A DNA stretch of 39,783 nucleotides from Polyangiaceae bacterium (GTDB lineage: Bacteria; Myxococcota_A; Polyangia; Polyangiales; Polyangiaceae), in the NCBI GenBank assembly GCA_029261965.1, contig JAJDAH010000309.1:1-39783 (forward strand), written 5' to 3'. Position 1 is the first letter of the stretch; each line of letters begins with the position of its first letter. The notes below the pieces were generated by a model that made no database searches, was not told where the DNA came from, and saw only the letters and a list, made by a program, of their open reading frames with translations. The position numbers and the translations under genes were made by a program. This document shows positions 10,839 through 27,206 of this stretch, piece after piece.

Positions 10839-12182
10839 TCAGTACCAGGCGGCGCCGACGGACGCGTTCAAGAACATCGGAAAGTCCGAATCGATCGGCG
10901 GAAGGAAGCTCACGGCGAAACGCATGTGCGGATCGGTACCGAGCTGGCTTCCGACCGTCGAATGCGATCCTGCCCCGGCTTCGGTCTCTTTGAGCCGGAG
11001 CTTGGTGACGTCGAGGCTGATTTCGGCGCCGCCGTAGTTGAAGAGATTGTCGCTGCGCGCTTCGCCACCGATCTCCAGGAAGTAAACGAAGGTGGGCGCG
11101 TAGGTGAGCCCGAGCACGAGGCCGCGCCACTGGTCGGCGGTGCGATAGTTGCCGATGCCAAAGGCGAGCCCCAGTTGAATCGGCACTTGGAGGCTGAAGA
11201 TGCCGTAGTCGGCACGCTCGACTTCCCGGATCAGCGGTTGCCCGATGATGCCCCGATACGTGAAACCAACGGGCTCGCTCACCCAGGCCAGACCCGGGTC
11301 CGCGCCGACCATGAGCTTGAATGCGGTAAAAAAGCCGATCTGCGTGGTCGGATCGGGTAACGGCAGGTACATCAAGCCGAGTCGAAGGCCTGGACCACCG
11401 CCGATGCCCAAGACGTTCGCGGTACCGCTGTCTCGGACACCTGTTTCGCCGGGTCGGTCTTGCGGATCCGTGAAGTCGACGTCGAACAGACCCAACATCG
11501 TAACGTTGATCCGCGCATCGAGCGCAAATTTCGCGCCGCCGCGTTCCTCCCACTTGCGGCGTCGAACCTTGGGGTCGTCCGCTGCGGTCGGCGCGGCCCA
11601 CTTGGGCGAATCCGAGCCCTCGTGCAGCACCGTCCAAGATTGCTCCGGAGCTGCCGCGACGGGCGGCGCCTCTTTCTTGGGTTTCGGCGCCGGAGCCACC
11701 TCGTCGAGAAGCGACGCGAGCATCTCGAGCGTCGGACCCTGGGGGTTTCCCTTGGGAGCCTCCACCACCTGGGACTTGGTGCCCTTGTCGCTGACGACGG
11801 TGACCCGAACGCCGATGACCGCCGGCTTCTCCCACTCGCGCGAGATGCGAACGAGCAGCGTCACGCCGAGCGCGGTCCTCAGCTGCCCGAGTTTCGCCTG
11901 ATCGGTCGTCACCTTGCCGGCTTCGAGCGCGCCGACACCCATGGCCGCAGCGTTGACGTCGAGCTTGCCCTTGGCTTCGAAGCCCCTCGCCCGCACCGCC
12001 TCGTACGCCTTGGCGCGAGCCTTAGCGTTCTCCGTCATATCTGACGCAACGTCACTCACGACGACCGCAGTCCCGGCGGTCGCCGGCTCTTCGGTTTGAG
12101 CCATTGCCGGAACCGTCACGAGCGCGGAGCCAGCGAGGGCTACGGTGAGACAGCCCACTCTTAACGAAGCAACCGGTGTCAC
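10839..12182 (-). CDS. Exported protein of unknown function, probable outer-membrane-type barrel
   Basis: The frame is open from 12572, but GTG 12182 starts a clear signal peptide (VASLRVGCLTVALAGSALVTV, cleavage after AMA), giving about 447 residues. Residues 30-150 form a small alpha/beta domain (VVVSDVASDMTENAKARAKAYEAVRARG..., LLVRISREWEKPAVIGVRVTVV), similar in style to myxobacterial proteins that test for parameter presence. A Pro/Lys-rich linker follows. From about residue 215 to the end, alternating polar/apolar strands with Gly turns and aromatic girdle-like residues (FALDARINVTMLGLFDVDF, LRLGLMYLPLPD, FVYFLEIGGEA) end in AAWY, an aromatic C-terminus typical of barrels. No family name can be given. 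It is the first gene of the run leading to glyQ and is divergent from the ATP-grasp gene. Confidence 0.7.
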   Translation of the reverse strand: MTPVASLRVGCLTVALAGSALVTVPAMAQTEEPATAGTAVVVSDVASDMTENAKARAKAYEAVRARGFEAKGKLDVNAAAMGVGALEAGKVTTDQAKLGQLRTALGVTLLVRISREWEKPAVIGVRVTVVSDKGTKSQVVEAPKGNPQGPTLEMLASLLDEVAPAPKPKKEAPPVAAAPEQSWTVLHEGSDSPKWAAPTAADDPKVRRRKWEERGGAKFALDARINVTMLGLFDVDFTDPQDRPGETGVRDSGTANVLGIGGGPGLRLGLMYLPLPDPTTQIGFFTAFKLMVGADPGLAWVSEPVGFTYRGIIGQPLIREVERADYGIFSLQVPIQLGLAFGIGNYRTADQWRGLVLGLTYAPTFVYFLEIGGEARSDNLFNYGGAEISLDVTKLRLKETEAGAGSHSTVGSQLGTDPHMRFAVSFLPPIDSDFPMFLNASVGAAWY

Positions 12183-12299: not shown

Positions 12300-14084
12300 A
12301 TGGCGGCGCGACGGACCAAGACGGCAAAGCGCCCGAAAAAAATCGGTGCACGCTCGAAGAAGGCACCGAAAAAGAAGGTGACGTCCGCTCGCCAGCCGCG
12401 AGCAAAGAAGAAGAATGATCCACGGGCAAACGGCGCTCCGTCGACATCCCCCGAGCCCGGCCCCCGCCGAGTCCCGTCGCTCCCGACCACCTTTCGCCAG
12501 ACGACGTCGTCTCGAATCCGCCATCAGGCGTATCAGATGGCGGCTCCGCGCTCGCCCGACGAAGAGATCCAACGTTTCGGAGAGCTCCAGCTGACCCTCG
12601 TCGATCGGTGGATGAAGCTGCGCGACGACGAAAGCGGGCGGCGGGACGTCGTCATCGTACCTTCGCTTTCCCTCGATGGGTTCCAGCTGGCGTCGATCCC
12701 CGGGATCAACGCGTACGAAGAACGAATGCTATTCACGCTCGGGCTATTGAGAAAGCCACGAGCTCGCGTGGTCTACGTCACCTCCCAGCCCCTGCACCCG
12801 GCGATCGTCGACTACTTTCTCGCGCTCATCGGCGGAATACCAACGGCCCACGCCAGAGCCCGCCTCACGTTGTTGTCTTGCTATGACTCGACCCCCCGGT
12901 CGCTGACCGACAAGATCCTCGAGCGGCCCCGGCTGATTCAGCGCATTCGCGACGCGATCGACACCGAGCGCGCCCACATGACCGTCTTCACGGTCAGCGA
13001 ACGCGAACGCCAGCTCGCCGTCGCGCTCGGCATCCCGCTCTACGGAGTCGATCCCAAGCTCTTGCCGCTCGGCACCAAGAGCGGCTCGCGCGAAGTGTTC
13101 CGCGAAGCCGGCGTCGCGATGTCGCCGGGTGCGGAGAATCTCCGAAGCGCAAGAGACGTGGCAAACGCCACAGCGGACCTCTGGGAGGAGCACCCGGAAA
13201 CGAAACGCGTCGTGGTCAAGCTCAACGAAGGGTTCAGCGGAGAAGGCAACGCCCTGCTTCGGTTATCCGGTGATCTCCGTCGAGTGGCGCCAGGCAAAGC
13301 TTCGCACCGGTCTCGGGTCTCCGCCCTGGGCAAGGGACTCGAGAACCTGCGCTTCCAGAGCGGCAACGAGACCTGGCGGCGATTCGAATCCGCCATAGAA
13401 ACGGTTGGCGCCGTCGTCGAAGCGTTCGTCGAAGGCAAGGAGTCTCGCTCGCCCAGCGCCCAACTTCGAATCAACCCCGGCGGCGAGCTCGAAGCCATGA
13501 GCACCCACGACCAGATCCTCGGCGGCCGAGACGGACAGGTCTATCAGGGTTGCCGCTTCCCAGCGGATCCGGCCTACCACCTGGCGATCCAGCACGACGC
13601 GCTCAAAGTCGGCGAGATCCTCGTTCGAAAGGGCGTGATCGGTCGCGTCGCCGTCGACTTCGTGACCGTTCGGACCAAAGGCGGCTGGAAGTCCTACGCC
13701 ATCGAGATCAACCTCCGAATGACGGGCACGACGCACCCCATCATGATGATGAGGCTGCTCAACGACGGCACCTACGATCCGGAAGAGGGCGTGTACGTGA
13801 CCCGACGCGGCGATCCTCGCTTCTACGTATCTACCGACAATCTGATTCGGCCCCACTATCGAGGCCTGCTCCCTGGGGACGTGCTCGACATCGCCGCGCG
13901 CCATCACTTGCACTACCAACCGTGGGCGGAAACCGGGGTCGCTTTTCACCTGCTCGGTGGACTGAGTGAATTCGGCAAGGTCGGGTTCACGGCGATAGGC
14001 GCCTCTCCGGAAGAAGCCGACGGTTGGTACGAGCGCACGGAGCGAGCTCTCGACGCGGAGACCCAAGGGGACATGAACACATGA
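12300..14084 (+). CDS. ATP-grasp peptide ligase, PGM1-related
   Basis: Its overall pattern matches the PGM1-related ATP-grasp group, named after the pheganomycin peptide ligase, which joins a peptide to a nonproteinogenic N-terminal unit using ATP. From ATG 12300 (594 aa) the order is as follows. First comes a Lys/Arg-rich disordered tail (residues 1-45). A pre-ATP-grasp domain follows (VVIVPSLSLDGFQLASIPGINAYEERMLF; VYVTSQPLHPAIVDYFLALI). The ATP-grasp domain then has VVVKLNEGFSGEGNALL (nucleotide Lys and Gly loop), GAVVEAFVEG, VAVDFVTVR, and metal-binding EINLRMTGTTHPIMM. A PGM1_C-like end closes the protein. ATG 12273 is an alternative start, and ATG 12537 would drop the basic tail. It overlaps the next gene by ATGA, so they are co-translated. 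The substrate is unknown; the group includes many uncharacterised members outside antibiotic clusters. Confidence 0.8.
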   Translation: MAARRTKTAKRPKKIGARSKKAPKKKVTSARQPRAKKKNDPRANGAPSTSPEPGPRRVPSLPTTFRQTTSSRIRHQAYQMAAPRSPDEEIQRFGELQLTLVDRWMKLRDDESGRRDVVIVPSLSLDGFQLASIPGINAYEERMLFTLGLLRKPRARVVYVTSQPLHPAIVDYFLALIGGIPTAHARARLTLLSCYDSTPRSLTDKILERPRLIQRIRDAIDTERAHMTVFTVSERERQLAVALGIPLYGVDPKLLPLGTKSGSREVFREAGVAMSPGAENLRSARDVANATADLWEEHPETKRVVVKLNEGFSGEGNALLRLSGDLRRVAPGKASHRSRVSALGKGLENLRFQSGNETWRRFESAIETVGAVVEAFVEGKESRSPSAQLRINPGGELEAMSTHDQILGGRDGQVYQGCRFPADPAYHLAIQHDALKVGEILVRKGVIGRVAVDFVTVRTKGGWKSYAIEINLRMTGTTHPIMMMRLLNDGTYDPEEGVYVTRRGDPRFYVSTDNLIRPHYRGLLPGDVLDIAARHHLHYQPWAETGVAFHLLGGLSEFGKVGFTAIGASPEEADGWYERTERALDAETQGDMNT

Positions 14085-14821
14085 GCGAATCGAACGACGT
14101 CGACCTGGCACTCGAAGCCTTTCACACCGACAAGAACGAAGCGCGGGCCCTCATCATGAAGTGGGCGGTGGCGACCGTAGCGTTGCAGGACATCGTGAAC
14201 GACCGGAAAGACAGTCGGCCCAGTTGGCCGGACTTGGCGCAGGCCGCCACCAAGTGGCTTGAGGACTACGGCAAGAGCGAAGGCAAGTGGAAGTCCCACC
14301 AGGAAGTCAGTCTGCGGATCTCGACGATGGGCGGGGAGCCGGAACCGGTGCCACAAACGCGCCTCGAGCAGTTCGACGAGAAGCTGTCGTTGTGGATGCA
14401 GCGCTACGGCGTGCTCTCGCTCAGGTGGTCCCTCGGGATCGTGTTCGTGTGGTTCGGCGCCCTGAAGCCGTTCGGACTGAGCCCGGCCGCCGGCCTGGTG
14501 GAAAAGACGGTCACCTGGTTTCCTTTCGACTACTTCTTCCCGATCCTCGGCGTCTGGGAGGTGGCCATCGGACTGTGCTTGATGTTCCGCCCCCTGCTTC
14601 GGGTCGCGCTGGTGCTACTGTTCCTGCAGATGCCGGGCACGGCGCTGCCGCTCCTGCTACTCCCGGACATCTGTTTCACCCACTTCCCCTACGCGCTGAC
14701 CCTCGAAGGTCAGTACATCATCAAGAACCTCACCCTCATCAGCGCCGGCATCATGGTCGGGGGCACGGTTCGCATGGGCAAGAAGCGACGCGATCAAAGA
14801 CGCGTCACCTGGGTGCTCTGA
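14081..14821 (+). CDS. DUF417/DoxX-like integral membrane protein with N-terminal soluble domain
   Basis: A 246-residue protein whose ATG overlaps the stop of the ATP-grasp gene by four bases. Residues 1-105 are a hydrophilic helical region (ALIMKWAVATVALQDIVNDRKDSRPSW; DYGKSEGKWKSHQEVS) not expected in DUF417 proteins. Residues 110-235 hold about four membrane segments with the YkgB/DUF417 pattern: LRWSLGIVFVWFGALKPFGL, FPILGVWEVAIGLCLMF, LLFLQMPGTALPLLLLPD and YALTLEGQYIIKNLTLISAGIMV. DoxX-related proteins are inner-membrane proteins sometimes tied to oxidative or thiol stress; the function here is unknown. Tight coupling to the ligase suggests handling, modification or export of the ligase product, which is inference. 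Confidence 0.72.
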   Translation: MSESNDVDLALEAFHTDKNEARALIMKWAVATVALQDIVNDRKDSRPSWPDLAQAATKWLEDYGKSEGKWKSHQEVSLRISTMGGEPEPVPQTRLEQFDEKLSLWMQRYGVLSLRWSLGIVFVWFGALKPFGLSPAAGLVEKTVTWFPFDYFFPILGVWEVAIGLCLMFRPLLRVALVLLFLQMPGTALPLLLLPDICFTHFPYALTLEGQYIIKNLTLISAGIMVGGTVRMGKKRRDQRRVTWVL

Positions 14822-14837
14822 CGACAGAACCGAGCAG

Positions 14838-15491
14838 ATGACGCGAGTAACCGTCGACTTCTACTTCGACTACTTGTCGCCGTACGCGTACCTCGCCTGG
14901 CACTCGCTCCGGCATCGAGAGGCGCTCGAGCTCCGCCCGATCCCCGTGGTGCTCGGCAAGCTGCTCGAGCATTGGGGGCAGCTCGGACCCGCCGAAATCG
15001 CACCGAAGCGCGACTTCGTGTTCAAACACTGCGCCAGACTCGCCGCCCTCGCTTCACTGCCGTTTTGCCCACCGAAGTTTCACCCGTTCAACCCCCTCAT
15101 TGCGCTCCGCGTCTCATCCACCGAAGTCGCCGGCGAAGCGCAGGACCGGGTCGTGCACGCCCTGTTTCAGGCAGGTTGGGCCCAGGGGGCCGACCTCGGC
15201 TCGAAAGACGAGGTCGCCACGGCGCTCACCGCCAGTGGGCTCGATGGCTCGGGCCTCGTCGAGCGAACGGCAGAGCTAGCCGCCAAAGGGGCGCTTCGCA
15301 CCGCCACCGAATCCGCCGTCGCGCTCGGAGTCTTCGGCGTACCGTCGATGATCGTGCATGGAGAGCTCTTTTGGGGAAACGACCAGACCGATCTCGTCGA
15401 GCGGCGTGCGCGCGGCGAAGACCCGATAGATCCCGAGCAAGCCCAGCGACAGCTCGCCCGGGAAGCAACGGCCGTGCGCCCGCGGGCGTAG
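14838..15491 (+). CDS. DsbA-fold isomerase, 2-hydroxychromene-2-carboxylate isomerase-like
   Basis: A 217-residue member of the DsbA/GST-kappa superfamily. It has VDFYFDYLSPYAYLAW at the N-terminus (the Ser-Pro-Tyr stretch replaces the CxxC of true DsbA), PIPVVLGKLLEHWG, PFNPLIALR, and the cis-Pro region GVFGVPSMIVHGELFWGNDQTDLVE. The best-known relatives are glutathione-dependent isomerases of naphthalene breakdown (NahD). No other aromatic-degradation genes are nearby, so the substrate is likely different. It starts 16 bases after the DUF417-like gene and probably belongs to the same transcript. A strong hairpin follows the stop. Confidence 0.82.
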   Translation: MTRVTVDFYFDYLSPYAYLAWHSLRHREALELRPIPVVLGKLLEHWGQLGPAEIAPKRDFVFKHCARLAALASLPFCPPKFHPFNPLIALRVSSTEVAGEAQDRVVHALFQAGWAQGADLGSKDEVATALTASGLDGSGLVERTAELAAKGALRTATESAVALGVFGVPSMIVHGELFWGNDQTDLVERRARGEDPIDPEQAQRQLAREATAVRPRA

Positions 15492-15534: not shown

Positions 15535-17688
15535 TCATCGCCGACGCCGCCGCGCCCAGAGCCCGGCCCCGACGACCAGTCCGAGCAAACCGAGACCCGT
15601 CGCGCCACCAGCTCGATTCACCGAGCACGCGCCACCGCTGGCGGTGACGCCGTCGCCACTACGGTCACCGTTGGCCCCGTTGCCAGTGCCCGCACCGGTT
15701 CCGCCCTGACCCTCGCCAGGCTTGAAGGGGTTGAAGGGATTGCGAGGATCGAACGGTCCACCTGGCGAACCCGGGCCACCGGGGCCGTAGTAATCCTCGC
15801 AGGTAGGCTTCGGCGGCACCTCGAAACGCCGAGGGTCGTCGGGAATCGACGAGACGCAGACCACGCCCTGCCGGGACTTGTTTTCGTTAGGCACGAGCCA
15901 CCCGAACTCTCCGCAGCTGTTGTCCGGCGCCGGGGCACATGCCCTCACGTCTTCCATCTTCGCCGTGAAATCGCGAGCGCCGCGTATCTCCGAAGCGCGC
16001 TCGATGGCTTCGCAGGTCGGGGCCCGATCGCTCGCTCCGAGCACCGCAGCGCTCGCCCCGCGGCAATTGCAGGTCGGAAAGCCGCCCACGTCGACACAGC
16101 TCCCATTGCCGCAATCGACCCCCTTGCAGGCGTCCGGCAACGTGATTCCCGCCGCGGCGAAGTCCACCGGGGGCGTGGCCGGCACGCAAGTCACCGACGG
16201 CTGACCGTCGAGATCGTTGAAGCGTCGTCCGACGAATCCTGGATTGCAGGCGCAACCCGGCCCGTTGGCGGTCGCCACACACTCACCCTCGCCGCAATAC
16301 ACCGCAGCGCAAGGCTGCAACTCGTTGATCGATTCGTAGAGACCTTCGTCGACGATGTCCGCTTCGCACGCCTGCATCGTCTTCATCGTCGAGCTCAGCG
16401 TCAGTCGCCCGCTGAGCGAAGCGGGATCCGCGCTCGCGCGGAAGGCCGGATCGAAGCTCATCTCCTCCGCGGAAAGACGGGTCGAGAGCCGCGTCATGAA
16501 CGCGTATTTCTGGCTGAGCTCGTCGACGAGCTTGACGCCGTTGACCAGGTCTTCTTCGTCGGCGCAGTCCGCCGCGTCAAAGTCGTCGAGCGGGCACTGA
16601 CAAGCCCCGTCACCACCAATGAAACACGAATCGAACGACGACCCGCAGCACCCGGTGGTGTCGCCGAACGAAGGAGTCGGCGGCAGCCCCGCGTACTCCA
16701 TCACGAAGCCGTCACCGCCGGCGTCGTCCGCCGCACGCGCCATCACCATCGGATAGTTGACACGATTGTCGGCGCCGAGGCTGATCCATCGGGGATCGAG
16801 ACCGACGAGCGGGTGATCCACCGGCTCGTACGCCTGGTCACTGTAGATGTAGGCCGTCACCGTCAGGTGAGGCTCCGCCGCGACCGCCGTCAGCTTCAAC
16901 GGAATCATCGGCTCGGTGCCGGGGTAGCGGATCTTCAGCGGTCGAATCTGATCGACGTCCGCGCCCGGAATGAGCTTCGCCGCGACGAACACCATGCCCG
17001 CATCGACGTACCCCTGCATGAAGGGCGTCATCGTGTCGTTCACGATGAACCCCTCGCCCTGAAGCCAAGCGATGGCCGCGGCTGCGTCCCCCGCGCCGAA
17101 CGTCACGGTATCGTAACCGCCGATCTGCGCCCGATCGATGATCGTGACCGGCGGGGGCGCGTTCGACCCAGAGCCCGCGGAACCTGCTGCGCCATTGAAG
17201 CCTCCCCCACTGCCGCCGGTTCCGGCCCCGGGCGCCCCCGCGTCGACGTTCGACGGATCAGAACATCCCGTCGGCGCCGGATGCTGAGTGCACACGTACT
17301 CGGGAGACGGGCAGAGCGACTCGCGCCCGACGTTGATGACCGGCGCGGTGCTGTCGTCGATCAGCCCAAAAGCCACGGACTCGCTGAGGGCGAGCTCGGT
17401 CGGCGGCACCGGCACCGGAAGAATCCATGCAAACTGCGCCGGATCGCCGGCGTAGCGAATGAGCACGTGAGCGCTTACTTCGCCGTCGGCCACCTCGAAG
17501 ATGATTTGCTCCGCTTGCTGGTTGACCGCGTAGGCCTCCTCGGAAACTGGGTCAGGTACCGGCGGCGAGAGACACCCGCACGCCTCGGCATCTGGCACAT
17601 CCGCGACAAGTACGGCACAAGCCGCAGCCCCGGCCACTACGGCGGTCGCGCCATATCGAAGCCACCCTCTATAAGTTCTTGAAATCAT
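15535..17688 (-). CDS. Secreted DUF2330 protein with EGF-like modules and a MYXO-CTERM-like tail
   Basis: A 717-residue protein starting at ATG 17688 with an AAGGAAAG ribosome-binding site. A signal peptide (about 1-37) ends near DAEACGC. Next is a DUF2330-type domain (about 38-330: YAVNQQAEQIIFEVADGEVSAHVLIRYAGD, FAWILPVPVPPTE), interrupted by a Gly/Ser/Ala-rich insert near residues 150-175. A Cys-rich segment (CCGSSFDSCFIGGDGACQC) follows. Two EGF-like modules are visible (CAAVYCGEGECVATANGPGC; CKGVDCGNGSCVDVGG). Then come a Gly/Pro/Asn-rich spacer and a C-terminus of Cys, a hydrophobic helix (GLGLLGLVVGAGLWA) and an Arg cluster. The last part fits the MYXO-CTERM sorting signal of myxobacteria, which is processed for surface anchoring. 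The function of DUF2330 is not established. It stands alone on this strand. Confidence 0.85.
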   Translation of the reverse strand: MISRTYRGWLRYGATAVVAGAAACAVLVADVPDAEACGCLSPPVPDPVSEEAYAVNQQAEQIIFEVADGEVSAHVLIRYAGDPAQFAWILPVPVPPTELALSESVAFGLIDDSTAPVINVGRESLCPSPEYVCTQHPAPTGCSDPSNVDAGAPGAGTGGSGGGFNGAAGSAGSGSNAPPPVTIIDRAQIGGYDTVTFGAGDAAAAIAWLQGEGFIVNDTMTPFMQGYVDAGMVFVAAKLIPGADVDQIRPLKIRYPGTEPMIPLKLTAVAAEPHLTVTAYIYSDQAYEPVDHPLVGLDPRWISLGADNRVNYPMVMARAADDAGGDGFVMEYAGLPPTPSFGDTTGCCGSSFDSCFIGGDGACQCPLDDFDAADCADEEDLVNGVKLVDELSQKYAFMTRLSTRLSAEEMSFDPAFRASADPASLSGRLTLSSTMKTMQACEADIVDEGLYESINELQPCAAVYCGEGECVATANGPGCACNPGFVGRRFNDLDGQPSVTCVPATPPVDFAAAGITLPDACKGVDCGNGSCVDVGGFPTCNCRGASAAVLGASDRAPTCEAIERASEIRGARDFTAKMEDVRACAPAPDNSCGEFGWLVPNENKSRQGVVCVSSIPDDPRRFEVPPKPTCEDYYGPGGPGSPGGPFDPRNPFNPFKPGEGQGGTGAGTGNGANGDRSGDGVTASGGACSVNRAGGATGLGLLGLVVGAGLWARRRRR

Positions 17689-17943: not shown

Positions 17944-18816
17944 TTGTTCAAGCCACATCCCTCGGTCAGCTCCGCTTGGGTCCTGTCGACGAGCGGGGAC
18001 ATCGAGCCACCGGTCGTGGGGGTCATGGGTGCGCTTCACGGCAACGAGACAGGTGGCCTCAAAGCGATCGAGCGCGCCATGCAGGAAGCGGAGGCCTTCT
18101 CCGGCAGCCTTCGCGCGGGCACCCTGATTCTGATCCACGGCAACCCACGCGCCACCGAGCAAGGAACCCGGTTCAGCGATGGCGGCTGCGACATCAACCG
18201 TTTGTTTGGCTATGGGTTCGTCACCGACCTGGCCAAAGCGGCGTGGTGCTACGAGCACCATCGCGCTTTCGAGCTCCAGCCCTTGCTCGGCCAGCTCGAC
18301 GCACTCGTCGACCTTCATTCGGCGAGCCGTCCGACTCAACCGTTCGCCGTGTGCGACGGGACCCCCGAGGGCATCGCGCTCGCCCGAAAAACTGGCTGTC
18401 ACGTCACACACGGTTGGGACGGCCCGGGCATGCTGATGGACCACGTGAGCATCGGCAGTCTCGTCGCTCGGGGGAAACCGGCCCTCAGCATCGAGTGCGG
18501 TCAGCACGACGAGGCGGCGACGGCGGAAAACGCCTACCGAGTGATGAAGCGGTTTCTTGGAGCGGTGGGGGTCACGAGCCACGAGGTGGTGACTTCCGAC
18601 GCGCCGACCTACGAGTTGTTCGCGCGAGTGGTGAAGCCGACCGGCGAGTTTCAGCTGAACGGCGACTTCTCGAGCTTCGATCGGCTCGAAGCGGGCAGTG
18701 TGCTCGGTTCCGGCGAGGGTGTTACGATCACGGTCGATCGCGAAGCGTTCCTGCTCTTGCCGACTCCGACAGCAGTGCGCGGCGAGGACATCGTGTACTT
18801 GGCACGTCGGCGCTGA
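17944..18816 (+). CDS. Succinylglutamate desuccinylase/aspartoacylase (AstE/AspA) family zinc hydrolase
   Basis: A 290-residue M14-like zinc deacylase. Motifs: GALHGNET (zinc ligands H32 and E35), IHGNPRA (N66/R69 substrate pocket), CDINRLFG, DLHSAS (third ligand H125), and SIECGQHD with the probable catalytic Glu. Residues after about 215 form the beta-rich C-terminal domain (GSVLGSGEGVTITVD). The family cleaves N-acyl amino acids such as N-succinylglutamate or N-acetylaspartate. No arginine-succinyltransferase genes are nearby, so the substrate is open. The best start is TTG 17944; a GGGGGAGGGA stretch lies upstream at a somewhat long distance, and no closer in-frame ATG or GTG fits. It is transcribed alone. 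Confidence 0.85.
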   Translation: MFKPHPSVSSAWVLSTSGDIEPPVVGVMGALHGNETGGLKAIERAMQEAEAFSGSLRAGTLILIHGNPRATEQGTRFSDGGCDINRLFGYGFVTDLAKAAWCYEHHRAFELQPLLGQLDALVDLHSASRPTQPFAVCDGTPEGIALARKTGCHVTHGWDGPGMLMDHVSIGSLVARGKPALSIECGQHDEAATAENAYRVMKRFLGAVGVTSHEVVTSDAPTYELFARVVKPTGEFQLNGDFSSFDRLEAGSVLGSGEGVTITVDREAFLLLPTPTAVRGEDIVYLARRR

Positions 18817-23805: not shown

Positions 23806-23871
23806 CGGCGTCGGCACCCTAGCAGGCGCGCTCCCACGCAGGCACAGCAACACGTGTATCGTGCGGGCTTC

Positions 23872-25062
23872 ATGCCTGCCGACCCCAGTGATCTGCGTGG
23901 AAAAGTCGCCGTCGTCGGGGTGGCCGACATCGCGTCGCCCAGCGGCAGGCTCGACAAAACCATGGCCGAGCTCGAAGCGATGATGGTCAAGGAAGCGCTC
24001 AACGACGCCGGACTCACCTTGCAAGACGTCGACGGGTTATTCACGGCGCGAAGCGAATCGATGGGCACGCTCGATCTCGCCGAACGTCTGGGTGTTCACC
24101 CCACGGTCACCGACACCACGATGACCGGCGGATCGAGCTTCGAGGTACACGTCGAACACGCCGCAGCCGCGCTCGCCCTCGGCCTGTGCGAAGTCGCCGT
24201 GGTCGTCTACGCGTCCACTCCTCGCTCCGGTGGCGCGTACCGGCCGGGCCAAGCGTACCGCGATTGGAACCCGAGCCGGCCGAGCCCGATGCTCGAGTGG
24301 GAACAACCCTACGGCATCTCGCTTCCGATGGGCGCCTACGCGCTCGCTGCCAGCCGCCACATGGCCGAGTTCGGCACCACGCGAGAAGACCTCGCCGAAA
24401 TCGCCGTCTCGACTCGCCAATGGGCCGCGATGAACCCGCGCGCTCGATACCGCGACCCGCTCACGGCCGAAGAAGTGCTCGCCTCCAAGCCGCTGTGTGA
24501 GCCGCTCCACAAGCTCGACTGTTGCGTCGTCACCGACGGCGCAGGAGCGATCGTGCTCACCCGCGCCGACCGCGCGCGCCAGTTGAAACAACCGCCCGCC
24601 TACGTGCTCGGCGCCGGCACGCATCACACCCATTCGATAATCAGCCAGATGCCCGACCTCACAGTCACCGCCGGCAAAGTGAGTGGAGCGCGCGCGATGG
24701 CGATGGCCGGAATCCGCCCGGCCGACGTCGACGTGCTGGAGACCTACGACTCGTTCACGATCACCGCCCTTCTCTCCATCGAAGATCTCGGGTTCTGTAA
24801 GAAAGGCGAGGGCGGCCGCTTCGTCAGAAACGGAACTCTGCGCCCCGGCGGCCGACTGCCGACGAACACCAACGGCGGCGGCCTTTCCTACACGCACCCC
24901 GGCATGTACGGCATCTTTCTCCTCGTTGAAGCCGCCCGCCAAATCCGTGGCACGTCGGGCCAGAACCAAGTCGAAGGCGTCGACATCGCCGTCGCCCACG
25001 GTTCGGGGGGCTTCTTGTCCGCGATGTCCACGGTGGTGCTCGGCTCGGAGGCGACGACATGA
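23872..25062 (+). CDS. Thiolase-fold protein lacking catalytic cysteines (SCP-x/Ltp2-like)
   Basis: A 396-residue protein from ATG 23872. The fold is that of lipid-transfer-type thiolases: VAVVGVADIASPSG, a conserved helix with ALNDAGLTLQDVDGLF, VTDGAGAIVLTRADRAR, YDSFTITALLSIEDLGFCKKGEGG, and NGGGLSYTHPGMYGIFLLVEAARQIRG. The nucleophile Cys expected in the TMTGGSSFEVHVEHAAAAL region is absent. The second Cys near the C-terminus is replaced in VAHGSGGFL, while the His of GLSYTHPG is kept. It is thus unlikely to do classical thiolysis. Related proteins paired with a DUF35 protein, such as Ltp2-ChsH2, act as retro-aldolases on branched acyl-CoA side chains. The start of the DUF35 gene overlaps the stop by ATGA, which supports a two-subunit enzyme. 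Confidence 0.85.
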   Translation: MPADPSDLRGKVAVVGVADIASPSGRLDKTMAELEAMMVKEALNDAGLTLQDVDGLFTARSESMGTLDLAERLGVHPTVTDTTMTGGSSFEVHVEHAAAALALGLCEVAVVVYASTPRSGGAYRPGQAYRDWNPSRPSPMLEWEQPYGISLPMGAYALAASRHMAEFGTTREDLAEIAVSTRQWAAMNPRARYRDPLTAEEVLASKPLCEPLHKLDCCVVTDGAGAIVLTRADRARQLKQPPAYVLGAGTHHTHSIISQMPDLTVTAGKVSGARAMAMAGIRPADVDVLETYDSFTITALLSIEDLGFCKKGEGGRFVRNGTLRPGGRLPTNTNGGGLSYTHPGMYGIFLLVEAARQIRGTSGQNQVEGVDIAVAHGSGGFLSAMSTVVLGSEATT

Positions 25063-25463
25063 GTGACAACAGCCCGCCCGGCCTCGACGTGCCCGAGTCC
25101 GCCGTGGCCAAGCCATTCTGGGACGGCACCCGCGAAAAAAAACTGGTCCTCCAGTGGTGCCCCGAGTGCGATCGCTCCGTGCACTATCCGCGCGAGATGT
25201 GCCCGCGCTGCATGACCACGGATCTCGTGTGGCGCGAGCTCAGCGGCCGCGGCGTGGTCTACGCGTTCACGGTGCAGCACTTCTCCGCCGTAGCCGACGT
25301 GCCAGTACCCTTCGTCATCGCGCTGGTCGACCTCGACGAGGGTGCTCGCCTCATGAGCAACATCGTGGGGTGCGCGCCGACCGGTGTCTCCGTCGGCATG
25401 CCCGTCAGCGTCGCGTGGCATCCCCTCGCCGACGGCCGCGCGCTGCCGATGTTCTCGAAGTGA
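25059..25463 (+). CDS. DUF35 OB-fold/zinc-ribbon acyl-CoA-associated protein
   Basis: A 134-residue protein with the two parts of the DUF35 family. First is an N-terminal helix and rubredoxin-like zinc ribbon (CPEC and CPRC, residues about 34-51: LVLQWCPECDRSVHYPREMCPRC). Then comes an OB fold (GRGVVYAFTVQHFSAVADVPVPFVIALVDLDEGARLMSNIVG). DUF35 partners bind thiolase-fold enzymes and help hold acyl-CoA substrates. The ATG overlaps the stop of the thiolase-fold gene by four bases, so the two products are likely made in equal amounts and form a complex. Confidence 0.9.
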   Translation: MSDNSPPGLDVPESAVAKPFWDGTREKKLVLQWCPECDRSVHYPREMCPRCMTTDLVWRELSGRGVVYAFTVQHFSAVADVPVPFVIALVDLDEGARLMSNIVGCAPTGVSVGMPVSVAWHPLADGRALPMFSK

Positions 25464-25509
25464 AGCCCGACCGTATCGAATCGCCGCGCTATCGTTTCGA
25501 GAGAGGTTT

Positions 25510-25562
25510 TCTCAATTTGAGTGAGCCAACTCTCATTTTGATACGCTAGCCTCTCATTTTGA
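25510..25562. promoter_or_regulatory. Three direct repeats TCTCA(A/T)TTTGA phased at 21 bp
   Basis: TCTCAATTTGA at 25510-25520, TCTCATTTTGA at 25531-25541 and TCTCATTTTGA at 25552-25562 are spaced exactly 21 bp start to start, two DNA turns. The first copy is also an odd palindrome (CTCAA-T-TTGAG). They fill the gap just before the sigma-54 regulator gene and are much AT-richer than the surroundings. They read as same-face binding sites for a regulator, possibly the neighbouring one. Confidence 0.75.
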
Positions 25563-25565
25563 TAG

Positions 25566-27206
25566 GTGCCTGCGCGCACTTTGGGAGGCGGCTTGCGGTA
25601 TCACGATCTGCATCTCGACGAGCTGCTCCGGTTCGAACCGACCGGGGGAATCGTTCGGTATGCGCGAGAACGGGCGCTGATCCTCGACGCGGTAGCGCTG
25701 GGATCGCTGCGCAAGGAATTGATCGACACCGTTGGGCAGGAAGTCGCCCGAGGACTTCTGACCCGATTCGGCTTTGCGCATGGGTGGCGCGTAGCGGAGA
25801 GCTTCGAGCAAGATTTTCCGTGGGACTCGGAACACGAGTGGACTCGCGCAGGAGGCCGCTTGATGCAACTGCTCGGGTTGGTGGTGGTCGAAAACGACGA
25901 GCCGCCGAAGGAACCCGGCGCGCCGCTGGCCGCGTCGTATTGGAAGGATTCCTTCGAGGCGGAGCAGCACCTGTTGCACGTGGGGCGCGCCGAAAAACCG
26001 GTGTGTTGGACGATTTGCGGCATGGCGAGCGGGTACGTCAGTCGATGCACCCGCGAGGAAATCTACTTCTTCGAAGACAAGTGCGAGGCGGCAGGGGACG
26101 CGGTCTGCCACGTCGTGGGACGGCGACGCGAAGACTGGGGTCCCGAACACCACAACCTTTTTCGATACTTCGAGCGAGAGTCGATGGACGCGGTCCTCGC
26201 GCGCGTCGCCGAAAAACTGAAAGAAACCGAACGACGATTGCGCGTCCGTGAGAGGCAAACGCGAGCTCGACCGAAAGCGCCACCGGACATGGTGGTCAAA
26301 AGCGAGGCGATGACCGCAGTGGTCGGCATCGCGCAACGCGTCGCCAAAGTCGACGCGACGGTACTCATCACGGGCGAGAGTGGTGTCGGCAAAGAACGCA
26401 TTGCGCGTCTGGTGCACGACGAGTCGCCACGTGCCGGAGGTCCCTTCATCGCGGTGAACCTGGGGGCAATCACCGGCACGCTGCTCGAGAGTGAGCTATT
26501 CGGCCACGCGAAGGGGGCGTTCACGGGAGCGTCCCGGGAGCGAATCGGACTGTTCGAAGCGGCAAACGGGAGCACGATCTTTCTCGACGAGATCGGAGAT
26601 CTCGGGCCGGAGCTTCAAGTGAAAATGCTTCGCGTACTTCAGGAACGAGAGGTGCGCCGCGTCGGCGACAACCGCGCGCGTCCTATCGACGTGCGGGTCG
26701 TCGCGGCGACGAACAAGGAGCTCGTGGACGCAGTGAAGAATGGCGAGTTTCGAGAAGATCTCTACTACCGTCTGCGCGTCGTCGAAATTGCGTTGCCTCC
26801 ACTACGAGACCGCCGCGACGACATTCTGCCGCTCGCCCGCAAGTTCGCCGACGTCGCCGCAGAACGCGCCGGCGTGAAGGGAGTCAAGTTGACCCCCGAG
26901 GTGGCCGACCAGCTGCTGCGCTACCCCTGGCCCGGCAACGTTCGCGAGCTCGAGAACTCCATCGAGTACGCCGTCGTCGTGCGATCCGGCCCGATCATCA
27001 CGATCAACGACCTTCCCGAGGACGTTCGGCGAGCCGTCGCCCCCCCGATGAGCGGCGGGGAGATCCGCCCCCTCGACGAGGTGGAGCGCGACTACATCGT
27101 GGCCGCGCTGGCCGCGAAGGACGACAACCGACGCGCCGCGGCCGAAGCCCTCGGCATCGGCGTCGCGACGCTCTATCGCAAGCTCCGGAAATGGGGAGTT
27201 TCGTGA
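25566..27206 (+). CDS. Sigma-54-dependent activator with XylR-type N-terminal and V4R sensor domains
   Basis: A 546-residue protein. Residues 12-110 resemble the XylR_N activator domain (LHLDELLRFEPTGGIVRYARERALILDAVALGSLRKELI). Residues 120-190 form a V4R ligand-binding domain (CGMASGYVSRCTREEIYFFEDKCEAAGDAVCHVVG). An AAA+ sigma-54-interaction domain follows: Walker A GESGVGKE at 270-277, KGAFTGAS with the GAFTGA loop at 317-322, Walker B STIFLDEIGD, and the arginine-bearing FREDLYYRLRV. The Fis-type helix-turn-helix is at about 518-543 (RRAAAEALGIGVATLYRKLRK). XylR/DmpR relatives bind aromatic compounds and then activate sigma-54 promoters. GTG 25566 lacks a ribosome-binding site. TTG 25593 has GGGAGG four bases upstream and would leave all sensor motifs intact. 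Confidence 0.9.
   Translation: MPARTLGGGLRYHDLHLDELLRFEPTGGIVRYARERALILDAVALGSLRKELIDTVGQEVARGLLTRFGFAHGWRVAESFEQDFPWDSEHEWTRAGGRLMQLLGLVVVENDEPPKEPGAPLAASYWKDSFEAEQHLLHVGRAEKPVCWTICGMASGYVSRCTREEIYFFEDKCEAAGDAVCHVVGRRREDWGPEHHNLFRYFERESMDAVLARVAEKLKETERRLRVRERQTRARPKAPPDMVVKSEAMTAVVGIAQRVAKVDATVLITGESGVGKERIARLVHDESPRAGGPFIAVNLGAITGTLLESELFGHAKGAFTGASRERIGLFEAANGSTIFLDEIGDLGPELQVKMLRVLQEREVRRVGDNRARPIDVRVVAATNKELVDAVKNGEFREDLYYRLRVVEIALPPLRDRRDDILPLARKFADVAAERAGVKGVKLTPEVADQLLRYPWPGNVRELENSIEYAVVVRSGPIITINDLPEDVRRAVAPPMSGGEIRPLDEVERDYIVAALAAKDDNRRAAAEALGIGVATLYRKLRKWGVS

Follow-up and report, generated by a model that had tools for sequence, protein, structure and literature searches.

We analysed a window of 39,783 nucleotides, positions 1 to 39,783 of contig JAJDAH010000309.1 (assembly GCA_029261965.1), from a Polyangiaceae bacterium. 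Three packed plus-strand genes in this window encode an ATP-grasp ligase, a membrane protein and an isomerase-like protein, and all three frames are open at the coordinates given below. The original prediction, made from the sequence alone, had read them as one system. In our analysis this unlikely three-gene system gives way to a testable gene pair. The recurrent partner of the ligase is an AstE/AspA-type gene at 17944-18816 that the original prediction had missed, and we think it fairly probable that ligase and deacylase go back to an ancestral gene pair, displaced in the window, and that they make and unmake (or trim) one small amide metabolite. The genes of the locus are as follows.

10839-12158, minus strand: divergent gene upstream of the ligase, also upstream of the ligase in loci L035 and L036
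12300-14084, plus strand: ATP-grasp ligase of the BesA/PGM1 family (ATG 12300 or 12537, TGA 14082-14084; family-conserved part from ~12537)
14081-14821, plus strand: DoxX-family membrane protein (ATG 14081; extra N-terminal part of ~90 residues)
14838-15491, plus strand: relative of 2-hydroxychromene-2-carboxylate isomerase and kappa-class glutathione transferase (GST) (PF01323, 109 bits; SPY motif, no CXXC)
15535-17688, minus strand: DUF2330 protein, separating the ligase group from the deacylase gene (PF10092, E 1.6e-26)
17944-18816, plus strand: AstE/AspA-type zinc deacylase, 3.9 kb downstream of the ligase (PF24827, 55.5 bits against a cut-off of 25)

By sequence and by modelled fold, the ATP-grasp protein is a member of the BesA/PGM1 ligase family, and BesA is closer to it than PGM1. 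It scores above the Pfam cut-offs for PGM1_C (PF18105; 50.2 vs 22.5 bits), ATP-grasp_IQCH (84.6 vs 27) and ATP-grasp_3 (27.8 vs 23.2). The C-terminal feature of the PGM1 group that had been read from the sequence is thus borne out, whereas the PreAtp-grasp domain (PF18604) falls short of its cut-off (16.8 vs 27.5 bits). The pre-ATP-grasp region is present but divergent, since 446 residues (model positions 114-588) align with BesA. The best NCBIfam match is also BesA (NF042917), with 144.4 bits and an equivalog cut-off of 750 that was not reached, and the sole strong match to a solved structure by sequence is BesA again (PDB 8yi6, 457 residues, E 4.7e-38). The lysines, the glutamate and the HDQ, VDFV and EINLR motifs line up with those of BesA, and many are invariant in a 15-sequence alignment.

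We modelled the ligase with AlphaFold2 from 15 sequences (mean predicted local distance difference test score, pLDDT, 79.7; residues 1-77 below 50). The top fold match is BesA (Z 41.3, 446 aligned residues, 30% identity), followed by 3wvq (Z 31.1), 3wvr (Z 30.9) and the Streptomyces peptide ligase entries 8ynd (29.4) and 8ynq (27.3). The first ATP-grasp enzyme outside this group has a Z of 21.9, and Foldseek puts the same BesA/PGM1-type structures first. The entries 3wvq and 3wvr, titled "Structure of ATP grasp protein", we take to be PGM1, the pheganomycin peptide ligase. The comparison with PGM1 that had been proposed as a check therefore favours the assigned group: BesA/PGM1 structures rank first, and a glutathione-type ligase is not among the matches listed in either fold search. 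BesA, the L-propargylglycine-L-glutamate ligase of Streptomyces (Streptantibioticus) cattleyicolor, resembles the window ligase in sequence, fold and motifs; the window ligase lies far under the equivalog cut-off, so no substrate is inferred from it. PGM1 shares the fold and the PGM1_C domain but differs in its low identity (19%) and in that no pheganomycin-type genes occur among the scanned window genes. One paper cites PGM1, in a passage on pheganomycin-like clusters, as a distantly related ligase (PMC8939145), and another lists an ATP-grasp ligase in one table row for a polysaccharide gene region (PMC4000134).

After training on the window, a codon-usage gene caller picked the same three genes and set the ligase start at 12537. 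Third-position GC (guanine plus cytosine) content is 0.78 in the ligase, 0.87 in the membrane-protein gene and 0.79 in the isomerase-like gene. The Lys/Arg-rich stretch that precedes the conserved part (12300-12536) may be a tail of the ligase protein, although codon-position GC content there is not clearly coding-like. A similar basic stretch lies upstream of 6001 in the nearest named relative, L055, and none was seen in six other relatives inspected. The genome also holds a second ligase copy, L054 (G000:C63:5922-7403), with 45% identity over the core and no deacylase neighbour; a longer alignment of this copy crosses two TGA codons.

The deacylase starts at TTG 17944 by comparison with its relatives; the gene caller chose 18016. 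Its H32, E35, R86, H125 and E184 are invariant in 26 out of 26 aligned sequences, so that the HxxE...H zinc site and the catalytic Arg and Glu of AstE/AspA deacylases are present. Presumably H32, E35 and H125 form the zinc site, and R86 and E184 are the catalytic residues. The window protein thus shares the PF24827 domain and the zinc and catalytic residues with succinylglutamate desuccinylase and aspartoacylase. It differs from them in its weak overall similarity (PDB matches to 1yw6 and aspartoacylases, E 4.5e-5 at best) and in that genes of its type sit by an ATP-grasp ligase.

We fetched 20 stretches around other ligase copies: 19 come from other genomes and one surrounds the second copy of the genome to which the window belongs. 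Some are cut by contig ends, and L042 and L048 stop shortly past the ligase, too early to reveal a gene behind it. In 8 of the 20, the ligase is immediately followed by an AstE-type gene on the same strand. This is also the case in 11 of the 14 non-cyanobacterial loci among the best 80 named ligase loci (the other 66 are cyanobacterial by title); 12 of these 14 seem to repeat contigs of our order sample, the additions being L055 and L058. Where the genes adjoin, the deacylase frame overlaps the ligase by up to ~19 bases or starts within ~70 (script-called starts).

The order sample comprised 115 genomes. We dropped ligase matches weaker than E 1e-20 (n=11), which left 40, fragments included; G008:C65 and G008:C251 among them may be one gene. 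Deacylase matches weaker than ~E 3e-40 were dropped as well (the next whole-gene match in another genome has 5.9e-15), except for two fragments that directly follow a ligase where their contig ends (G013:C17 and G106:C298). For 22 of the 40 ligase matches a deacylase lies less than 5 kb downstream on the same strand. Twenty of these are adjacent, the match ends lying 12-63 bases apart. Gaps are wider in the remaining two: 3.9 kb in the window and 3.4 kb in G008, where a single gene intervenes. Without the two fragments, 20 of 40 are linked and 18 adjacent. By genus, 17 of the 22 fall in g27 and one each in g1 (the window), g6, g11, g31 and g46.

The two genes also occur together at the level of genomes. 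A ligase (E <= 1e-50) is found in 35 genomes of the order sample and a deacylase (E <= 3e-40) in 29; 24 have both, 11 the ligase only, 5 the deacylase only and 75 neither (Fisher p 7.6e-12, relatedness ignored). Leaving out the 19 g27 genomes gives 9, 9, 5 and 73, respectively (p 4.6e-5, relatedness again ignored). Within the window's family the deacylase is present in 5 of 40 genomes (the 40 counted by hand), and all 5 are among the 7 ligase carriers.

A ligase tree of 45 chosen rows was built with a quick method and supported by the Shimodaira-Hasegawa-like approximate likelihood ratio test (SH-aLRT) only. The rows include 13 of the 22 loci of the other-class set, 7 of the best 80 named loci and 2 of the 19 loci of a further set, and the root is unreliable because the outgroup branches are very long. 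All adjacent cases in the tree fall in one clade of 19 rows (SH-aLRT 100), and the window sits in a sub-clade of 6 (SH-aLRT 99) with three of them. In 10 rows of the clade of 19 the two genes are adjacent and in 2 they are less than 4 kb apart; 4 rows carry the deacylase at another place in the genome, and 3 lack it. The row L048, labelled "otherclass", corresponds to G013, with its deacylase starting 48 bases downstream. The tree rows that lie outside this clade show no deacylase within 5 kb of the ligase. In L051 and L052, AstE-like genes lie 6.8-7.4 kb from the ligase; as they are weak (3.5e-6 and 1.5e-4) and exceed the 5 kb limit, we did not treat them as links.

In the window, the DoxX, isomerase and minus-strand DUF2330 genes stand between ligase and deacylase. 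Locus L036 has the order upstream gene, ligase and then deacylase directly, and in L035 the deacylase is on another contig. As the 10839-12158 gene lies upstream of the ligase in all three, we regard them as the same locus. The conserved upstream gene and the order in L036 support a gain of the intervening genes by the window lineage, and the DoxX-family and isomerase/GST-like genes look like lineage-specific neighbours of the ligase that arrived there.

The original prediction proposed that the ligase, the membrane protein and the isomerase could act jointly, making a peptide-like compound and placing or exporting it. Its observations on spacing were accurate on checking the frames: the ligase stop and the membrane-protein start share an ATGA, and 16 bases separate the membrane-protein stop from the isomerase-like ATG at 14838. 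This overlap and gap suggest one transcript in this genome, and the DoxX-like and isomerase/GST-like genes are probably co-transcribed with the ligase. The arrangement itself did not recur. A DoxX-like gene was found neither in the 20 fetched stretches nor in the best 80 named loci. The isomerase is never adjacent to the ligase in the 20 stretches: a relative occurs in three, 4.8-7.0 kb downstream on the opposite strand, within what we take from the sequences to be a sulfur-metabolism block. The best 80 named loci include one such relative, 4.8 kb from the ligase on the other strand. We also inspected fifteen further loci with isomerase relatives and two with weak DoxX matches; neither a ligase nor a recurrent DoxX partner was present. 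Conserved co-occurrence had been proposed as a check, with lack of conserved gene order as the finding that would speak against the system; no conserved order was found in these sets, and a conserved three-gene operon is therefore rejected for the genomes searched. In the literature searched we found no description of the three genes together.

The identities of the two smaller proteins also count against joint action. The membrane protein had been called DUF417-like. It scores below the gathering score for DUF417 (PF04224; 16.1 vs 27 bits), and for the DoxX model PF07681 as well (11.3 vs 23.6), and is assigned to the DoxX family by homology to annotated DoxX proteins. A tblastn match to a Natronorubrum DoxX protein has 56.6% identity over residues 94-238. 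In all, 24 of 72,556 plasmid records gave matches, among them ones from Haloterrigena, Halorubrum, Deinococcus, Rubrobacter and Streptomyces, and of the 20 listed, 19 are annotated as DoxX family and one is without annotation. Within the plasmid collection, haloarchaeal and Deinococcus proteins come closest to the DoxX part, and at four such loci no ligase, isomerase or deacylase is annotated nearby in gene tables that are incomplete. Near the window lineage the protein is rare, with one weak match in the 114 other genomes of the order sample and one marginal match (E 0.0098) in the 281 other genomes of a phylum sample. An extra part, which the earlier description took for an unexpected soluble domain, is real: matches in the listed DoxX relatives begin only at residues 66-98, so the window protein has an extra N-terminal part of ~90 residues, in which it differs from the rest of the family. 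A single-sequence fold model of the protein was unusable (pLDDT 45.7). DoxX proteins are not known to act as exporters. The third protein had been described as a DsbA-fold isomerase. Its solved-structure matches (PDB 3fz5, 4.6e-16; 2imd, 1.5e-14; 1r4w, 3.2e-10) are isomerases and kappa-class GST; CXXC is absent from the translation, and therefore a DsbA-like redox role is unlikely. The proposed redox or thiol aspect of the product, which rested on DsbA, loses that support. This protein has nine matches within the same genome, itself included, so paralogues lie elsewhere. Taken together, the three-gene system is probably not real, and we consider joint synthesis and placement or export by these proteins unlikely.

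Two further explanations concern the ligase itself. It may have a general cellular role, such as tagging a widespread metabolite or protein, that does not depend on its neighbours, the deacylase link then being an accident of one clade. Homologues of ~50% identity with varying neighbours, in many cyanobacteria (66 of the best 80 named loci, with no fixed neighbour) and in other classes of the phylum, favour this explanation. Against it, the link appears in several sub-branches of the clade with frames overlapping or nearly so, and co-occurrence of ligase and deacylase extends to unlinked copies; we hold a general role to be possible but doubtful. Membership in the BesA/PGM1 family would also fit a specialised-metabolite ligase in an unrecognised antibiotic pathway, which we judge very improbable. 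A Pfam scan of 36 of the 37 called window genes found no nonribosomal peptide synthetase, polyketide synthase or similar biosynthetic core family, in keeping with the earlier remark that no antibiotic cluster is visible, and the missed BesA equivalog cut-off and the wide distribution of the ligase argue in the same direction. No search aimed at a precursor gene was made, and only ~140 bases separate the 10839-12158 gene from ATG 12300.

Several observations weigh against the ligase-deacylase pair. A linked deacylase is missing for 18 of the 40 ligase matches (a few cut by contig ends), 17 of the 22 links come from the single genus g27, and two links (G013 and G106:C298) rest on contig-end deacylase fragments above the E limit. 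Even in the clade of 19, the deacylase is absent from the genome for three rows and lies elsewhere for four. None of the 66 cyanobacterial named loci has a linked deacylase, and 11 cyanobacterial genomes searched give weak deacylase-superfamily matches at best. The ligase of other classes in the phylum instead often has an FtsH-like gene nearby. Six genomes, five of the order sample and G264 of another class, have the deacylase without the ligase. The co-occurrence tests ignore relatedness, and the reverse history, in which the intervening genes were lost elsewhere, is possible.

We nevertheless favour the pair of ligase and deacylase, on the basis of the family and fold of the ligase, the kept motifs of both enzymes, their recurrent adjacency and co-occurrence, and the fact that the DoxX and isomerase genes are not conserved across the genomes searched. 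What we infer is the reaction, a substrate common to both enzymes and a later arrival of the intervening genes. ATP-grasp ligases activate a carboxylate as an acyl phosphate and then couple it to an amine; AstE/AspA enzymes are zinc hydrolases of N-acyl amino acids. ATP-dependent amide bond formation is accordingly what family membership predicts for the ligase. It would convert the carboxylate of a small acid or amino acid to an acyl phosphate using ATP, and an amine (an amino acid or short peptide) would then attack this intermediate to form an amide or peptide bond. For the zinc enzyme, the predicted substrate to be hydrolysed is an N-acyl or aminoacyl amide, either of this compound or of a related one. 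The DoxX, isomerase/GST-like and DUF2330 genes would have come to separate the two enzyme genes in the window lineage, the DoxX and isomerase/GST-like genes standing outside the conserved function of the ligase. More tentatively, and with considerable doubt, the Myxococcota clade of BesA/PGM1 ligases with its own AstE-type deacylase could be the writer and eraser of a reversible amide modification on a small metabolite, with the wider family, cyanobacterial copies included, making the same compound.

Both enzyme families are already known. We found no description of the pair in the open-access literature searched, and ATP-grasp/AstE neighbourhoods may have been mentioned earlier, for example in the 2009 amidoligase survey of Iyer and colleagues. 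The characterised members BesA and PGM1 come from natural-product pathways. The ligase described here lies outside any visible cluster, and in relatives it lies beside an enzyme that cuts the kind of bond the ligase makes. Since the ligase also occurs in many cyanobacteria, its product, once found, would explain a widespread uncharacterised enzyme.

Other neighbours of the ligase and of AstE-like genes were recorded as well. An FtsH-like gene lies directly after the ligase or one gene later in 11 of 20 other-class stretches (L196-L215), and the one member checked matches Peptidase_M41. A phosphoribulokinase-like gene, recognised by eye, is upstream of the ligase in 14 of the 66 cyanobacterial loci (L069-L134). 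On a Robbsia andropogonis plasmid (L176), a PGM1-related ligase lies by an inosamine-phosphate amidinotransferase, an aldehyde dehydrogenase and a short-chain dehydrogenase/reductase gene, a possible natural-product cluster. Ten genomes of another family, f30, have AstE-like matches within open frames of 981-1142 codons, and the five f30 loci fetched (L217-L220, L223) adjoin a topoisomerase-like gene, recognised by eye. In the window itself, 23854-27206 encodes a thiolase, a ChsH2-like OB-fold protein and a sigma-54 activator with an XylR_N domain ("activator of aromatic catabolism"). This block lies ~8 kb beyond the isomerase-like gene, relatives of whose product presumably act in aromatic breakdown.

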